From Elusimicrobiota bacterium (GTDB lineage: Bacteria > Elusimicrobiota > Elusimicrobia > FEN-1173): a DNA stretch of 64,000 nucleotides. The notes under the pieces were generated by a model, which was given only the letters and a program-made list of their open reading frames with translations, made no database searches and was not told the DNA's origin. The position numbers and the translations under genes are program-made. Positions within the stretch are counted from its first letter, which is position 1; each line of letters begins with the position of its first letter. The stretch is taken from NCBI GenBank assembly GCA_016788905.1, contig JAEURZ010000009.1:1-64000 (forward strand), read 5' to 3'. Below are positions 27,806-35,142 of this stretch, piece after piece.

Positions 27806-28635
27806 AGTCCAGCTATTCCCGCATCGGATGTTACGGATTTTGTCCTAAGAAATACGAGTATCGCTATGTTCTTCAAATCCCTGCGCCGGTCAAACCGGAA
27901 CTGGCGTTTGGGGTGGCCATTCACGAGACGCTGGAACATAATTTCGTTCAAAAAATTGATTCCCGAAATGATTTGCCTGGACAGGACTTGGCGGTCTTTT
28001 TCCGTGACACGTTAGACAATCGTTTGCGGCCCGTCCCGGAGGAATTCCTTCGAGGCCCATCGGAACCCCATTACCTTCGCGCGCTGGGCGAACATTTCCT
28101 GGACCAGTTTATGAGGGAACGGGCGCCGGGACTTCAACCGGCAACGCGTGGGGTCGAATGTTCGTTCCGTCTTCCCTTACCGGGAGACCATGAATTAACA
28201 GGGCAATTTGATCTGTTGGACAGCGAATGGGTTTTGCACGATTTCAAAACCTCCAATAAACCCTACGATCCTCGCCGTGCGGACCGAACCCAGTTGGTGA
28301 TTTACTCCTGGGCCTGTGAGCGCATGTTTGGCCGGCCGCCAAAATCCTTGTGTTTTGATGTGTTCGTGAAAGGGGATGGGGCTGAGGGAGACGCGGGTCT
28401 TCAGGCGCCTGTGATTTTTCCCTCCCCGTCGTCCGCGGACATGGGGCAAGTGGCGCGCCGCTTGGCTGGGATTTTGGACCGGTTGCTTCGCGCCGAGGAA
28501 CGCCACGAATTTCCCCGTTCGTTCGAACCTGTCCGATGCCACTGGTGTGAATACCAACCGCGCTGTCAACGGGAGTGGGATTTGGAGGGGAATCCACGCC
28601 CCGTAAAAATTTCTTTGGAATCCTTAGTGCCCTGA
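27802..28635 (+). CDS. RecB/Cas4-like PD-(D/E)XK nuclease with Fe-S cysteines
   Basis: A 277-residue stand-alone nuclease. Motifs in order: SYSRIGCYGFCPKKYEYRY at the N-terminus, GVAIHETLEH, GQFDLLD, LHDFKTS (the D-x-K core) and QLVIYSWACE. Cysteines at 14, 246, 249 and 255 (the last three in CHWCEYQPRC) match the 4Fe-4S arrangement of AddB/Cas4-type enzymes. The catalytic residues look intact. GTG 27802 overlaps the tldD stop (GTGA); a longer upstream frame lies inside tldD and was rejected. No CRISPR array or helicase is nearby, so the role is unclear: probably single-strand or end processing. Confidence 0.85.
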   Translation: MKSSYSRIGCYGFCPKKYEYRYVLQIPAPVKPELAFGVAIHETLEHNFVQKIDSRNDLPGQDLAVFFRDTLDNRLRPVPEEFLRGPSEPHYLRALGEHFLDQFMRERAPGLQPATRGVECSFRLPLPGDHELTGQFDLLDSEWVLHDFKTSNKPYDPRRADRTQLVIYSWACERMFGRPPKSLCFDVFVKGDGAEGDAGLQAPVIFPSPSSADMGQVARRLAGILDRLLRAEERHEFPRSFEPVRCHWCEYQPRCQREWDLEGNPRPVKISLESLVP

Positions 28636-30612
28636 GGGATTCTCCCGCCGTGGGCGACGGGCGTGATCGGAGAAAAAGGGGAACTGGGATAAAATTTTGG
28701 GCATAACCTTTTCCGCTTCTTCTTCTCCAACCGTGATGATGTCTTTCGCTCGATGAAATTCCGACCACCCGAACTCGGCCAGGTTTGGGGCGATCACCAC
28801 ATCCGCCCCGTCCGCGCCATTTCGGGCGATTCCGTATTGCATGGTGTAAATGGTTTTGGCCATGACATGAAATATGTTGGGCCCGTGAAGCGGGTTGAAA
28901 ACCGATGGGCGCCGTTTGCGGAGGCTCGGTACTCTTTTGATGGCGGGAGAGGTGGTGATGTTGACGGAAATGGAAACATCCGCGCCCATCGCTTGAATGA
29001 TCGAGGTGGGAACGGGGTTCACCACACCACCGTCCACGAGGTAGCGCCCTTGCCAAAAGAAAGGTTCAAAGAAAAAAGGGAGAGACAGGGAGGCGCGAAC
29101 CGCTTCGGCCACAGCCCCGTGCCTCAACACACGTTCGGTCCCCGCGTGGATCTCTGTCGCCACACAGGCAAAGGGCAGTTGCAATTGATCAAAAGAAACG
29201 TCCCCGAGAACGGATTTGAGGAAACGGAGCACCCCATTTCCCAGAATCACGCCCTTCCAAGGAACAGTCCAATCCGCCATGGTCCAGAGCCGTTTCTTCG
29301 TAATGCTTAAAGCAATTTCTTCCAGTTCGGCCACCGATTTTCCCGCCGCGTAAAAGCTTCCCACCAACGCCCCCATGGAGGTCCCCGCCAAGAGATCGGG
29401 ATAAACACCATTTCGTTCCAGCGCTTTCAGAATTCCAATGATGGAATACCCCAAGGCCGCTCCGGAGCCCATGGCGAACCCCACACGCAAGCCCGCTAAC
29501 TGTCGGGCCATACGACTTAGCCCTCGGAGCCCCAATTCTTCTTGCCGGGAGAGAAAGAGGTCACCCCTCTCCGATCCCCGGAGTTCACGGTTCCTCCACG
29601 GAATATAAAACCGGCCCGGTCGATTGCGTCGGGGAGGCGCGTTTCGTTGTAATTCCACCAGGTCCAGCCGATGGGGGGGTACCACGGATTCCATTTCACG
29701 CCACAACGCCCCGCCCTTTTCGGTGGATTCTTCCCGAATGTAAAAGGTGCGGTCCACCTCTTCCCATAGAGTTCGGGCCGCTCTCGATGGGTGTCCCGGG
29801 TGGCAAATGAACACGAAATCCCACTCTTTCCGCGCGGTCATCACCAAGGGGTAGAGACCGCCAAAAAGGGGCCCCGAGAGGGAACTCTCGGAAACGGAAA
29901 GAAGGTCGAGGCCTGAGGCGTGTTCAAAGACGAGGGACCGGAGCCCCTCCACGGTTTGGAAATCCTGCAGATCCATGTGGGGGGGGATCCCGTGCGTGTG
30001 GTGGCTTAACTGCGATACGGCCGGGATCGCTTTTTCTTCAGTAACTTCCACGAAGAGGACGCGTCGCCGGGATTGTTCCATTGTGGCCAGGGCGAGATTG
30101 AACACACATCTCAAACGTTCCTGAGGATGAAGCGCTCCCATGGCCAGATACACTTTTCCCATGGAGCCCGCGATCGGGGGGGGGAGGGTTGATTGGACCA
30201 GTCGTTGGGCCAGGGAGCGGGAGACCGCCAGGGCGAGGGGCGGGTGTTTTTCAAGGGTATCTTCAAATTCTTTCCGAAGCAGTTCAAGAACAACGCTGGG
30301 TTGGAGGGCGATAGCGGTTCCGGGTCGAGGTTCACCACCCAACAGGGCCATTTCGCCAATCAGGTCCCCCCGGCGACCCAAGGTGGTCAGAATGTGTTCT
30401 TTACCCGCCCTGTTTTCCACGACCTGCACTTGGCCAGAAATCAGGAGATGGAGGGCGTTCCCCTCCTCTCCTTGGCGAAAGAGAACGTCCCCTTGCTGAA
30501 GGGTGCGGGAATGAAAAGAGGCGAACAGAAACGACCTCAACTCCTCGCGAATATCCCCAAAAAAAGGAATTCGACGGAGCAGGGAGGCCCAATCGGGTTC
30601 TAGGTCTGTCAT
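28624..30612 (-). CDS. cNMP-binding, patatin-like phospholipase (NTE family)
   Basis: A 662-residue protein in three parts. Residues 10-130 form a cyclic-nucleotide-binding domain (LQQGDVLFRQGEEGNALHLL, GDLIGEMALLGG). Residues 145-310 resemble a MinD/CpaE fold without a Walker A motif. Residues 370-640 form a patatin esterase with nucleophile serine in GTSMG and aspartate in DGGVVNP. The oxyanion glycine motif is altered (GSGAALG instead of GGGxRG). The family hydrolyses phospholipids at membranes. Its 3' end overlaps the convergent nuclease gene by 12 bases. It follows the pseudopilin genes by 32 bases. Confidence 0.87.
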   Translation of the reverse strand: MTDLEPDWASLLRRIPFFGDIREELRSFLFASFHSRTLQQGDVLFRQGEEGNALHLLISGQVQVVENRAGKEHILTTLGRRGDLIGEMALLGGEPRPGTAIALQPSVVLELLRKEFEDTLEKHPPLALAVSRSLAQRLVQSTLPPPIAGSMGKVYLAMGALHPQERLRCVFNLALATMEQSRRRVLFVEVTEEKAIPAVSQLSHHTHGIPPHMDLQDFQTVEGLRSLVFEHASGLDLLSVSESSLSGPLFGGLYPLVMTARKEWDFVFICHPGHPSRAARTLWEEVDRTFYIREESTEKGGALWREMESVVPPHRLDLVELQRNAPPRRNRPGRFYIPWRNRELRGSERGDLFLSRQEELGLRGLSRMARQLAGLRVGFAMGSGAALGYSIIGILKALERNGVYPDLLAGTSMGALVGSFYAAGKSVAELEEIALSITKKRLWTMADWTVPWKGVILGNGVLRFLKSVLGDVSFDQLQLPFACVATEIHAGTERVLRHGAVAEAVRASLSLPFFFEPFFWQGRYLVDGGVVNPVPTSIIQAMGADVSISVNITTSPAIKRVPSLRKRRPSVFNPLHGPNIFHVMAKTIYTMQYGIARNGADGADVVIAPNLAEFGWSEFHRAKDIITVGEEEAEKVMPKILSQFPFFSDHARRPRRENPSGH

Positions 30613-30644: not shown

Positions 30645-31142
30645 CTAATTGTTAAGGAGACGAATGGTTTCTCCCCCCATTTGAAGCGAGTAGGTTTCAT
30701 AATTCCCACCGGTTTTTTCGATGGATAAAAGGATTGTGAGTAGGCTGGAATCTGCTGTGAATGGATACGAAAATAAAATGGATCGGAGTTTTTTCGAGAG
30801 CACGGTGGTTGCCCCGTTTTTACTCATAGAGAGAGTCCGACCGGTTTGCCAAAAGAGGATCGTGTCTCCCTGCACTTTCTGGAAAGAAATTTTACTGTAG
30901 GGAGGTTGAGAAGCGTCTTCTCGTGAAAGAGTGATGGAGGAAGACTTGGCCTGGCGAATTTCTCGGCACACCAGATCCATGAGGTTTCGCACATCCCTTT
31001 GGGTTTCCATTTTCGCAATGGAAACGCGGAAAAAGGTGCTCACCCGCGTAAAAAGTGACGCTCCCATGGAGAGAAGAAAGGCCACGATGGCGGAGACCAC
31101 AAGAAGTTCAACCAGCGTGTACCCCGAGGTGCGCTTTACCAC
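30645..31142 (-). CDS. Small pseudopilin (PulJ/GspJ-like)
   Basis: A 165-residue protein with a class III prepilin signal: a short basic leader MVKRTSG, then YTLVELLVVSAIVAFLLS, cleaved between G7 and Y8 with glutamate at +5. The remainder resembles minor pseudopilins such as GspJ (VCREIRQAKSSS, SKISFQKVQGDTILFW). Its start overlaps the end of the much larger pilin-like gene by 7 bases. It would be a minor subunit of a type IV pilus or secretion pseudopilus whose assembly machinery is not in the window. Confidence 0.82.
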   Translation of the reverse strand: MVKRTSGYTLVELLVVSAIVAFLLSMGASLFTRVSTFFRVSIAKMETQRDVRNLMDLVCREIRQAKSSSITLSREDASQPPYSKISFQKVQGDTILFWQTGRTLSMSKNGATTVLSKKLRSILFSYPFTADSSLLTILLSIEKTGGNYETYSLQMGGETIRLLNN

Positions 31143-33697
31143 GCGATGTCCCGAGTGGTCGTGGTGCGTGGGGCAATCACCACGTTGGTGAGGTCTTTGC
31201 GAGTGACGGTGGGTGTGTTGCCGTTAAAAGTAGTGTACCACCCGGTGACAAAATAGGTCCCGTTTTGAATTTTAAAAGAATACGTCCCATCGGAACGGGA
31301 GGAACCGCTGTAGTAAAGCGTTCCTGATCCGCGGAAGCTGCTGTCTATTGGGGGAGGAGAAGCCGGAACCGCCACGACGCTGGCCATCAGAAGGACCCCC
31401 GTGGTGATGGGTTTGCCTTGGTGAGTGACCTTCCCCGTCAGTGTCCCGTAAGCCGATGTGACCGTGTAGGTGGCGGCAAAAACAGTGCTCCCGCCCACGT
31501 TCGCGTTAACGGCCGGGGTGTCCGGAGAAATGGACTCCCCAAATTCGACGGTCGGCCGGACAGCGTAGGTGCCGACGGGAACAGAGACAGAGAACAGTCC
31601 GCTCGGGTTTGAAATGGCGTTGTCCATGGTCATTCCTGTGCCCACGTTGGTCACTTCCACCGGGACATTGGGGAGCGGGGTGACCCCATCAATGGTCAAG
31701 AGCCCTTGGATGCGAGCTCCTCCGCTGAGGTAGAGCGTGTGGTTCGATGACGATTGGCCCCGCACAATGGTGATCGGGAGAGAGGTCTCTGTGTAATTGG
31801 GGTTCGTGCTTCCTTTATTGGCGGTCAAGGTCTGGGCTCCTGGGAAAAGAGGGACGTTGAAAAATCCAAGGCCATTCGTTAAGCCGACACCTGGTGAAAT
31901 TGAAATTCCCGCGAGGCCCCCCAGCCCTAAGGCGTCCACCACCCGGCCGCTGGCGAACCCGTAGAGGGTGGAGGTGTTCATAACCACCGAGGTGGAAAGG
32001 TTCACCCCGGCGCCGATGGGGGTGGAAAAGCTAAGAAAAAAATTTCCAGACGACGCGCTCACGGTCCAGGTTCCAGTGGCCACGGAGGAAAGGGTGAACC
32101 GTGCTTCGGGGGGTGACCCTGTCAACGCGGCTTGAGTCATTTGTGAAAGTCCATCGTCCGCAAAAATCAAAGCCCCGTTGGAGGGAATTCCGGTCCTCAC
32201 GGGAAGTGCGGGTGAGGCGCTGGCGCGTGGGGGGGAATGGGGGGCCCCGTTGTTTACAGCCCAATCAAGGGAGTTGTTCCCGCTGTCGTAGGCGGGGCCC
32301 ACCGTGGACGAGAGGGCCCCGCCTGTATCGCTTTTTCGGTAATAGATCTCGTTGGCCTGGAGGCCAAATTGATCTGAGACGGGAAGCGTTTCGCTGGACG
32401 CGGGGTTGTTCCATCCAGCCCCCTGCCAGCCCACTCGGTCCAAAACCATGCCCGTGGAAAGGGACGTGAGGGTGAGGACTCCCGCGCCTTCAAAGGCCCC
32501 GTCTGTTCCGTTGGTCGGTAAGATGTTGTAGACACCTGCCCCGGCGTCGAAATAAGGAAAGCAATCGTCGTTCACCACCGCTCCCGTGTTGCAGGCGGCT
32601 CCCCCAATGGTTGTGTTCCATACCGCGTCAGCCGAAACGGGTGTTCCGTCAATGTTGAGGACAGACTGGCTGGCGAATAAATAAAATTTTCCAGGAGGGA
32701 TGAGCGATCCCCCCGGCGCGTAGTTCAGGGCGATGGGGATGGGCCACGGGTCCTGGGCGAGGCGGCGTTGGAACGTGAGTCCAATGGCTCCATCAACGGT
32801 CCATGTCCACGTGGTTGGATTAAAAATTTCCACATATTCCTGAGCGGTGGGACCCGTAAGTTTATACCCACAGACTCGACTGATCACCAAATGGTCGTTG
32901 TGCCAAACGCTTCCTGAGATCGTTCCTGAAGACATGGCGTTCAACGCGAAATTGACGGTCACTTGGGTGGTGGTGCTGCTGATGACGTTGTTGGCGCTTG
33001 TTTTTGTGAAATATCCCGGTTTCGAGGCGCGGAGGGTGTACGTCCCCTGTCGAACGCCGAGACGGTAGTTCCCTGTTCCCCCGCTAACGGCATTCATCGA
33101 CGGATTTTCCGCGATGTCCACCATCGCTCCGGAAAGGGGAGTGGCGGTGGCGTTGTCCGTCACCGTTCCCACAAAATCGCCTTCAGATTCTCCCCGGTTC
33201 GGATTTTCCAAGAGGTTGGTCAACTGAAATCTTTTCCAGGCGTCGCGCTCTCTCCAGACAACGTCCAGGGTAATCCGTTTTAATCCAGTGTCGGTGGAAT
33301 CCCAGGCTTTCAGATCAAGGGTTTCCGAAGCATTTTTTTTGACCCGCTCGACCATCGCGTAAGCGGTAAATGTGACCCCGTTGATGATGGAGACCGTAGG
33401 CGAATAATTGGATTCGTCACTCCAGACGGAGGGAGAGAGGGCGCTCAGCGCGGTGGGAACAACGGTGTGGCTGGAAACCCTCAATCGATAATAGGAGGTG
33501 TTCTTAAGAGACTGCATCTTTTCGTTGGCCAACTGGGTGGCCAGGGACTTGAATCGAGTGGCAATGATTCCGCGGCTAATGCCCGAAAACCCTTGAATGA
33601 CGGTTAATCCAACGAGCGAAGCGATCACGCTCATCACCAAAAGTTCAATAAGGGTGACTCCCGCGGTTGTCCGTGGAATGGGTCGGCCCGTCACCAT
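31136..33697 (-). CDS. Very large pilin-like protein with Ig-like and lamin-tail modules
   Basis: An 853-residue surface protein. Its N-terminus is a prepilin signal (TTAG, then VTLIELLVMSVIASLVG). A GspI/PilV-like stretch is followed by a carboxypeptidase-regulatory-like module (FVGTVTDNATATPLSGAMVDI), a lamin-tail-like domain (EYVEIFNPTTWTW, KFYLFASQSVLNIDG, MVLDRVGWQGAGW) and at least three more regulatory-like beta modules (ASGRVVDALGLGGLAG, IQGLLTIDGVTPLPNV, LTGKVTHQGKPITTG). Pilins are usually 120-200 residues, so this looks like an adhesive tip or display subunit. I chose ATG 33697; an upstream TTG overlaps the -35 box. Confidence 0.78.
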   Translation of the reverse strand: MVTGRPIPRTTAGVTLIELLVMSVIASLVGLTVIQGFSGISRGIIATRFKSLATQLANEKMQSLKNTSYYRLRVSSHTVVPTALSALSPSVWSDESNYSPTVSIINGVTFTAYAMVERVKKNASETLDLKAWDSTDTGLKRITLDVVWRERDAWKRFQLTNLLENPNRGESEGDFVGTVTDNATATPLSGAMVDIAENPSMNAVSGGTGNYRLGVRQGTYTLRASKPGYFTKTSANNVISSTTTQVTVNFALNAMSSGTISGSVWHNDHLVISRVCGYKLTGPTAQEYVEIFNPTTWTWTVDGAIGLTFQRRLAQDPWPIPIALNYAPGGSLIPPGKFYLFASQSVLNIDGTPVSADAVWNTTIGGAACNTGAVVNDDCFPYFDAGAGVYNILPTNGTDGAFEGAGVLTLTSLSTGMVLDRVGWQGAGWNNPASSETLPVSDQFGLQANEIYYRKSDTGGALSSTVGPAYDSGNNSLDWAVNNGAPHSPPRASASPALPVRTGIPSNGALIFADDGLSQMTQAALTGSPPEARFTLSSVATGTWTVSASSGNFFLSFSTPIGAGVNLSTSVVMNTSTLYGFASGRVVDALGLGGLAGISISPGVGLTNGLGFFNVPLFPGAQTLTANKGSTNPNYTETSLPITIVRGQSSSNHTLYLSGGARIQGLLTIDGVTPLPNVPVEVTNVGTGMTMDNAISNPSGLFSVSVPVGTYAVRPTVEFGESISPDTPAVNANVGGSTVFAATYTVTSAYGTLTGKVTHQGKPITTGVLLMASVVAVPASPPPIDSSFRGSGTLYYSGSSRSDGTYSFKIQNGTYFVTGWYTTFNGNTPTVTRKDLTNVVIAPRTTTTRDIAW

Positions 33698-33807: not shown

Positions 33808-35142
33808 ATGAGAAAAAACGCGGGGAACTTAATGGCTGTTTTTCTGGGTCTCCTCCTCTTGGTTGTTGTTGTTCTCCCGTTGGTCATTCAGCTCCTCCAG
33901 AACGAATCCAAACAATCGGTCAAACGCCAAAAATCAACGGTGGCGTTTCAAATGGCAGAAGCCGCGGTGGCCAAGGGGGTTGCCAAACTCACGGAGACAA
34001 GGAAAAATTTCACGGACGCCATCGCGGGAATTCCCTTAAGTGATTACAATGATGATCGGGCCTTCGCCGATATCCCTGGGGGAAAATATAAAATAAAAAT
34101 AACTTCGGGATCCGTTCCAGGAAACGTTTTCATCCTGGGAAAAGGCATGGATTCTTCCTCTTCAGAAATTCGTTCCATCGTGGCGGAATATTCGGCGGGC
34201 GATCCGGATTCGCCGGCGCTCATTTTTAACCAGGGGCAAACATCGGGAAGCTCTTGGATTATTCCGGAGTGGGGTTCGTTGAAGAGCTACAACAACCTGA
34301 TGTATTTTGTGGAATACTCTTATCCGCGTTTAAAGGGCGCGGGCTATATCACCGGCCGTGACATTGACCCCACTCCTCCCAACACGGATAATATTCATTA
34401 CTGGGCTTACCAACCCGATCTCGGGTCCCCACCGGTACCGGATTTGGCCTATTACAAGCAGAAGGCGATGGACTCGGTTGTTCCCTCCAGTTCGACTACC
34501 GGAGAAATCCGCCGAACCGATGGCAGCCCTACCTTTCGAAATCCTCCCAACTCAGGATATTTTCAATCACTGCTCAATTGGGGAAAATCCATATATTTCG
34601 ATAAAAAAACCGGCCTGCCCGAAGGCATGGGAAACTTTTACGAATTTCGAAGTTCGACCTCCGTGATCTATTTAGATTATACGGACTTAACCAGCAGTTA
34701 TTTTTTTATAGACCGAGTCTTCCTCGATGTGGAGGCTCTTATTATTCCCAATGGAGGCTATGCGATAACGGGCAGTGCGGTCCCTTATCATGTTTACGGA
34801 GCGACGATTCCAGAGTCCGCTCCCTACGAATATCAGAATACCGTTCCTGTCTGGGGCCCAACCTCAGGGCAGTCGTGGTGGAACTCAACCTTTGCGGGGA
34901 TCTACAGCCAACCCAATCACTGTTGTTACGGCATTGCGAATCTTCAAGTCCACGGTTTTTTTTATGGAACGGGGGGGAGTTTCAATCGGACAACGTTCCT
35001 CGGGGTGGCGCAGTTCACAACCGAGGGAAGCTTTAGTGCCGACAGTAAGGTCTACTACGACCCCACGGTATTGGATAACGTGTCCTGGGCCAAGGCACCG
35101 ATCCATCTGACTTCTTGGAAAGAAACAAGTCATTCGTGGTGA
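33808..35142 (+). CDS. PilX-like pilus-associated protein, otherwise unrecognised
   Basis: A 444-residue protein with an N-terminal membrane helix (about residues 8-30, MAVFLGLLLLVVVVLPLVIQ) followed by an AEAAVAKGVAKL helix, as in PilX/GspK-type minor pilus proteins, but without the classic G-(F/V)xxxE cleavage site. The rest is tyrosine-, serine- and glycine-rich, suggesting an extracellular beta-rich region, with a CC pair in NHCCYG. It is divergent from the large pilin-like gene, 110 bases apart, and likely belongs to the same appendage. I do not recognise the C-terminal domain. Confidence 0.6.
   Translation: MRKNAGNLMAVFLGLLLLVVVVLPLVIQLLQNESKQSVKRQKSTVAFQMAEAAVAKGVAKLTETRKNFTDAIAGIPLSDYNDDRAFADIPGGKYKIKITSGSVPGNVFILGKGMDSSSSEIRSIVAEYSAGDPDSPALIFNQGQTSGSSWIIPEWGSLKSYNNLMYFVEYSYPRLKGAGYITGRDIDPTPPNTDNIHYWAYQPDLGSPPVPDLAYYKQKAMDSVVPSSSTTGEIRRTDGSPTFRNPPNSGYFQSLLNWGKSIYFDKKTGLPEGMGNFYEFRSSTSVIYLDYTDLTSSYFFIDRVFLDVEALIIPNGGYAITGSAVPYHVYGATIPESAPYEYQNTVPVWGPTSGQSWWNSTFAGIYSQPNHCCYGIANLQVHGFFYGTGGSFNRTTFLGVAQFTTEGSFSADSKVYYDPTVLDNVSWAKAPIHLTSWKETSHSW

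Follow-up and report, generated by a model that had tools for sequence, protein, structure and literature searches.

A 64,000-nucleotide stretch of DNA from an Elusimicrobiota bacterium (positions 1 to 64,000 of contig JAEURZ010000009.1, which we call the window) contains a gene for an 853-residue pilin-like protein, at 31136..33697 on the minus strand. This protein is most likely an I-type minor pilin that has turned into a giant modular pilin and that forms the tip of a type IV pilus, together with two smaller pilins, J and K, whose genes lie beside its own. We also think it quite probable that its modules are a stack of ligand-binding domains that is displayed at the end of the pilus. Pilus-tip display had been proposed by the initial annotation, which a model made from the sequence alone, and it is still the best-supported role of the large pilin.

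The gene runs from an ATG at 33697 to a stop codon at 31136-31138. Its position and length had been annotated correctly; the strand is minus, and the plus-strand reading of the same interval contains many stops. Because homologues keep the full length, a chance open reading frame is excluded. The host genome is 2.51 Mb in 78 contigs.

Domains of the large pilin

The N-terminus looks like that of a minor pilin. Residues 1-65 (33503..33697; all of the domains in this section are on the minus strand) comprise a class III signal and a long alpha1 helix, as judged from the sequence, from the predicted structure, and from matches to N_methyl and to GspI, PilV, and ComGE. We expect the prepilin to be cleaved after Gly13, which would leave a glutamate at position 5 of the mature protein (Glu5), and in the predicted structure residues 16-65 form one long helix. 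The prepilin signal that had been annotated is real, although it is weak in the window protein alone (Pfam's N_methyl gives E = 0.28 in one scan and 16.4 bits, E = 0.03, in another). N_methyl matches the other 24 members of a 25-member alignment (E ≤ 0.1), which was made from the window protein plus 24 of the 29 full-length loci found elsewhere. In a larger alignment of 40 members (the window protein and 39 of 52 loci), the NCBIfam models that match at E ≤ 0.1 are ComGE (33 of 40), PilV (29 of 40), and GspI (27 of 40), while GspH matches only 3 of 40; the best E among members for the I-type models is 5.9e-8. Judging from these models, which are the nearest in NCBIfam for the N-terminus, the large pilin appears to be I-type (GspI/PilV/ComGE-like). 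Alpha1 is also the most conserved part of the family, with a mean pairwise identity of 50%, versus 32-42% for the remainder.

After alpha1 comes the beta part of the pilin (residues 66-168, 33194..33502), which has strands at residues 101-164 in the model. Next is a module at residues 172-257 (32927..33184) that is related to CarboxypepD_reg and is transthyretin-like. The initial annotation had named a carboxypeptidase-regulatory-like module, and we agree: PF13620 scores 63.9 bits against a Pfam cut-off of 32.3, there are sequence matches in the PDB, and the transthyretin-like domain of human carboxypeptidase D superposes on residues 173-256 (VIA Z 14.6, root-mean-square deviation [rmsd] 1.2 over 82). 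Transthyretin-like or Cna-B-like modules also make up the C-terminus (residues 579-853, 31139..31963), where Foldseek and VIA give matches, from about residue 577 on, to TIE, SdrD, UafA, and SpaA-type domains, and where there is a profile match to NOMO2. The annotation had tied its idea to fold matches for the modules, and the transthyretin-like ones do have them. Residues 431-578 (31964..32407) are a beta-rich region in the model and belong to no named family. A DUF4876 protein (4q1z) matches residues 172-496 with a VIA Z of 12.7 but with an rmsd of 14.7 over 266.

Between the first module and the beta-rich region, at residues 262-430 (32408..32914), is a lamin-tail domain (LTD) with an inserted loop. 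This type of domain is akin to the tail of the nuclear lamins of animals. The lamin-tail module that had been annotated stands up in the profiles of the family and not in Pfam's view of the window protein itself, for which LTD (PF00932) has no match at E ≤ 10. Among the 25 aligned members, 20 have a Pfam match to LTD (E ≤ 0.1). When ten members were scanned at E ≤ 0.01, eight had an LTD, at residues 252-421, with scores of 17.4-28.3 bits that are all under the Pfam cut-off of 34.3. One divergent paralogue (G030:C51) does exceed the cut-off, with 50.6 bits; in the family tree, it and two other sequences form a clade (support 0.95) at the midpoint root. The comparison of profiles is clearer: when hhalign compares the family slice at 262-430 with 18 other LTDs from related genomes, it reports a probability of 98.3% (E = 2.5e-14), while seven other slices of the family alignment give at most 12.8%, and the beta-rich region is negative in this test. 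The best 50 rows of Foldseek or of VIA for the large protein include no lamin structure. We also note that the window's contig (C9) encodes another LTD just outside the window (L123, 12931-13293; E = 9.6e-16), in an open frame of 342 amino acids. No other LTD match in the genome reaches E ≤ 0.001.

The I-J-K cassette

The large gene is followed by a gene for a J-type minor pilin of 165 amino acids (30645..31142, minus strand), which starts with GTG and overlaps the large gene by 7 bases. On the other side is the gene for a K-type minor pilin of 444 amino acids (33808..35142, plus strand). Both neighbors had been noticed in the initial annotation, as a co-transcribed small pseudopilin and as a divergent PilX-like gene, and both are present. 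We now read the latter as the K partner of an I-J-K cassette.

These genes are tightly linked across relatives. Our list of contigs gave at least 57 loci, of which five (L101-L105) matched the LTD part alone and were dropped, which left 52. Among these listed matches to named relatives, profiles find J downstream of the large gene in 51 of the 51 that can be scored and K downstream in 49 of 49: 49 loci have both genes, two have J and too little sequence for K, and one has too little sequence for either. The J and K profiles were built partly from the loci that were counted; among loci that did not go into the builds, the profiles detect K in 23 of 26 and J in 34 of 35, and where they miss, the locus ends too early. 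(The alignments were fed by a regular-expression search of the 52 loci, which gave 42 J genes and 31 K genes. With the window's own proteins added, 17 of the 42 J proteins make an 18-member alignment and 26 of the 31 K proteins make a 27-member alignment.) The 7-base overlap of I and J is also found in 26 of the relatives' 42 J genes. Across the phylum, 116 of 294 genomes have both I and K (I is in 122 and K in 118), where 49 would be expected if they were independent.

The gene order in the window is unusual. The starts of K and I are divergent and 110 bases apart, and profiles did not find this order, with K upstream of I, among the 52 loci listed. The same genome has two other cassettes, back to back on contig C4, and these keep the I-J-K order. 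The minus-strand cassette on C4 (L119, 911-3979) has one I and one J and then two tandem K-type genes. In the window, no H gene lies beside the large gene. The next gene after J (28624-30612, minus strand) appears, by eye, to be a fusion of a cyclic-nucleotide-binding domain and a patatin-like domain.

K lacks Glu5. In the alignment, the cleavage glycine is present and this glutamate is missing in all 27 K proteins. Tip complexes are described as being capped by a subunit without Glu5 (PMC10191384), so the tip is favored for K. Just 7 of the 27 match PilX_N in Pfam, weakly, and none has a match to the T2SSK domain at E ≤ 0.1. The predicted fold of K (predicted local distance difference test [pLDDT] 75) has a helix at residues 5-41, pilin strands from residue 81, a solenoid at 131-418, and a final strand at 432-440. 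In other words, the model shows a pilin sheet into which a beta-solenoid is inserted and which the last strand completes. Its best match in Foldseek is ComZ (6qvi, E = 2.1e-7), and three ComZ chains are all that Foldseek finds at E ≤ 0.001. Over the pilin and the solenoid together, VIA matches ComZ with Z 8.4 and an rmsd of 11.6; because of this rmsd, the orientation of the domains may differ from that in ComZ. The pilin part of K also matches PilA from S. sanguinis (VIA Z 8.5). K has three sequence hits in the PDB at E ≤ 1; these are weak and look like chance, and ComZ is not among them.

Spread across Elusimicrobiota

A profile of the 40 aligned large pilins finds the family (E ≤ 1e-20) in 122 of 294 genomes of the phylum and in 61 of 90 genera, counting the window's own genome, and 22 of the 122 genomes fall outside the window's class. 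In an earlier scan, 93 of 147 related genomes (again counting our own) had homologues, with 28-45% identity over long stretches. Members of the family are homologous along their full length. Among the matches listed, the named relatives are mostly Elusimicrobia or Elusimicrobiota metagenome-assembled genomes, along with a few labelled as Endomicrobia, Endomicrobiales, or just "bacterium" and one labelled as Chloroflexi. The contig with the Chloroflexi label (L059) has the full I-J-K cassette, and in the gene tree its large pilin falls among the sequences from Elusimicrobiota; this is possibly a mislabelled bin.

All of the 122 genomes with the family have a match to PilT. Within the window's class and outside of family f11, 99 of the 110 genomes with a PilT match have the modular pilin. 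In f11 itself, it is present in only 1 of the 79 genomes listed with a PilT match, and f16, which belongs to another class and has mostly small genomes, accounts for 0 of the 122. The genomes of f11 are small as well, and from genome size we guess that f11 or f16 is host-associated.

The three large pilins of the window's genome fall in three separate clades of a 61-sequence gene tree, which was midpoint-rooted and has uneven support. Because of this separation they look like old paralogues, although on tree evidence alone horizontal transfer is an alternative. Perhaps some genomes carry several old paralogous tips that recognize different ligands. Two modular-pilin genes lie on opposite strands, about 0.2-9 kb apart, at G012:C24, G067:C113, G077:C22, G030:C51, and our own C4.

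Role at the pilus tip

The genome encodes the machinery that a pilus needs. There are ten matches to T2SSE-family ATPases, of which five are PilB/GspE-like and five are PilT-like by coverage, along with two secretins and one prepilin peptidase. Contig C8 has PilB-, PilT-, PilC-, and PilA-like genes, although only PilT is over the NCBIfam cut-off. The initial annotation had also staked its proposal on finding machinery for type IV pili or type II secretion, and these genes provide it. Tad pili have been reported in Elusimicrobia as well (PMC6668835).

By analogy with the HIJK minor pilins (PMC10191384) and with PilABC of S. sanguinis, I, J, and K would prime the pilus and stay at its tip. The prepilin peptidase would cleave the three proteins and they would associate in the membrane via their helices. 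K would cap the complex, with I and J coming after it, and the extension ATPase would build the PilA filament beneath them. The module stack of I (about 680 residues) and the solenoid of K would project beyond the tip, and the displayed modules would bind an extracellular ligand, such as a surface, a neighboring cell, or a matrix polymer. PilT would retract the filament. We suggest, rather tentatively, that Elusimicrobiota have evolved a tip of their own: in place of I-J-K pilins that are small and carry a PilY1 cap, the I modules and the K solenoid would be the two arms of an all-pilin receptor.

If the modules are displayed at the tip, then we lean towards adhesion rather than DNA capture. 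All 40 members carry a net negative charge in the module part of the large pilin (residues 169-853), with a computed isoelectric point of 4.1-5.2 and about 22% serine plus threonine, and ComEC does not track the cassette; these are our two grounds, and both are weak. The alternative is a competence pilus, whose K and modular I would bind extracellular DNA and whose retraction would deliver the DNA to ComEC. The closest solved fold to K, ComZ, is described as binding DNA both alone and with its I-like neighbor PilA2; it is the proposed DNA receptor at the pilus tip of Thermus, and for steric reasons the tip was argued to be the only place for it (PMC6561018). The genome does encode ComEC (PF03772, E = 7.3e-54) as well as PilT. 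However, ComEC is nearly universal (130 of 144 relatives, including many f11 genomes that lack the modular pilin), so its presence does not discriminate. Besides the acidic modules of I, K is net negative in 24 of 27 proteins, and it has no sequence match to ComZ (PDB profile search, E ≤ 1). Overall, DNA uptake seems to us the less likely of the two, yet the ComZ-like K makes it an alternative to be taken seriously.

The cassette could instead be the substrate-recognition tip of the pseudopilus of a type II secretion system (T2SS). I, J, and K are common to these systems, and the two HIJK sets are reported to be interchangeable for piliation (PMC10191384). A T2SS-type cluster exists in this genome, on contig C34, with a secretin that has a GspD N0 domain, an ATPase, and a GspF-like gene (by eye); we gave it this label without searching for GspC or GspM. 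But this cluster has its own run of small pilin genes in an H-I-J-K-like order, whose H, I, and J assignments are weak and which ends in a GspK that matches T2SSK_1st (Pfam, 3.3e-17). The modular cassettes are elsewhere, on C9 and C4. Since the T2SS cluster comes with minor pilins of its own, gene content points to a type IV pilus as the machine that the modular cassettes most likely serve, and a role in secretion is very improbable. Finally, some minor pilins are said to sit along the filament (PMC10191384) and flexible linkers might permit a position on the shaft (PMC8179133), but two things favor the tip: the large gene is constantly linked to J and to a K without Glu5, and the modules are bulky. 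We therefore give little credence to the idea of a large pilin that is distributed over the shaft or has a structural role instead of acting as a tip effector.

Several observations weigh against our preferred reading of a modular pilin that is displayed at the tip for adhesion. First, although the predicted structure of the large pilin has a pLDDT of 81, its predicted TM-score is 0.52, so the relative placing of the domains is unreliable. Second, the only I-type model that matches the window protein itself is GspI, with 16.4 bits against a cut-off of 44.35. Third, the resemblance of K to ComZ is loose: the TM-scores are only 0.19-0.24, the rmsd of 11.6 Å is over 302 residues, the solenoid alone (131-418) fits DUF3494 ice-binding folds better (VIA Z 10.5), and the lack of a sequence match between them counts here too. 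Fourth, PilT is present in 268 of 294 genomes of the phylum, so its co-occurrence with the family is weak evidence, and at E ≤ 1e-20 the family is absent from 172 of the 294, including many that have PilT. Fifth, acidity is a poor guide, since ComZ is described as binding DNA without the characteristic positive patch on its solenoid (PMC6561018), and this weakens our preference for adhesion.

The large adhesin-like protein that minor pilins would show at the tip recalls PilC/PilY1. PilY1 is not a pilin, whereas in our protein a pilin itself carries the display modules. The window protein does not match the PilY1 family (PF05567) at E ≤ 10; that family also matches 0 of 144 genomes, but our control genomes gave no match either, so we do not use that result as evidence. 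The genome also has two copies of a second type of minor-pilin cassette (L121, 1597-5825 on C2, and L122, 2105-5883 on C16), which is reminiscent of PilY1 with minor pilins. The order is an FG-GAP repeat protein (729 and 622 amino acids), a J-like pilin (403 and 358), an I/PilV-like pilin (164 and 165), and a short K-like protein (112 and 117, by eye). FG-GAP was scanned in both copies and the pilins in the C2 copy only.

The Verru_Chthon cassette (NCBIfam TIGR02596, TIGR02598, and TIGR02599) is a multi-gene set of prepilin-type proteins. It is similar to ours in having several prepilin-type genes together, and its protein C is matched by all 18 of the aligned J proteins (E ≤ 0.1); for the window's J, the match is to the N-terminus only, with 32.2 bits against a cut-off of 256.5. 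Our cassette is also similar to the HIJK minor pilins of type IVa pili and T2SS, in its I-J-K order, its I- and J-type N-terminal matches (the I-type match being weak in the window's own large pilin), and a K without Glu5. It differs in that K has a predicted beta-solenoid and no T2SSK match, in that no H adjoins it in the window, and in that the GspI model, with 101 positions, is several times shorter than I. ComZ and PilA2 of Thermus thermophilus are like K and I in that a K-like pilin has a solenoid in its pilin sheet, its gene is beside that of an I-like partner, and it is proposed to be at the pilus tip (PMC6561018); by sequence, the PDB profile search (E ≤ 1) gives K no match to ComZ.

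Modular pilins are themselves common: one survey describes more than 1,200 proteins with 264 architectures (PMC8179133). In S. sanguinis, PilB and PilC are described as N-terminal pilin modules with grafted general-purpose binding domains, and a small complex of minor pilins has been modelled at the tip (PMC8179133, PMC9934059). Our system resembles theirs in the first respect and probably in the second. Unlike in S. sanguinis, the I subunit bears the modules, these are carboxypeptidase-regulatory, LTD, and Cna-B-like domains instead of vWA or lectin domains, there are secretins in this genome, and a single architecture recurs in 61 of 90 sampled genera. The same survey calls the I subunit of T2SS non-modular (PMC8179133). 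We found no description of this large pilin in the literature, although the modular-pilin dataset of Raynaud et al. may already include such proteins. As far as we found, what is new is one architecture on the I subunit across so many genera, the LTD, and the pairing with a ComZ-like K.

The host phylum is poorly cultivated, and yet most of its sampled genera retain this fixed order of domains. The lamin-tail domain places on a pilus a type of domain whose role in bacteria could be revealed by binding assays, and the stack of modules on an I subunit could be used to study how a priming complex copes with cargo and displays it. Because the large pilin is kept along with J and K in most of the sampled genera, this is likely the standard pilus tip of those bacteria.

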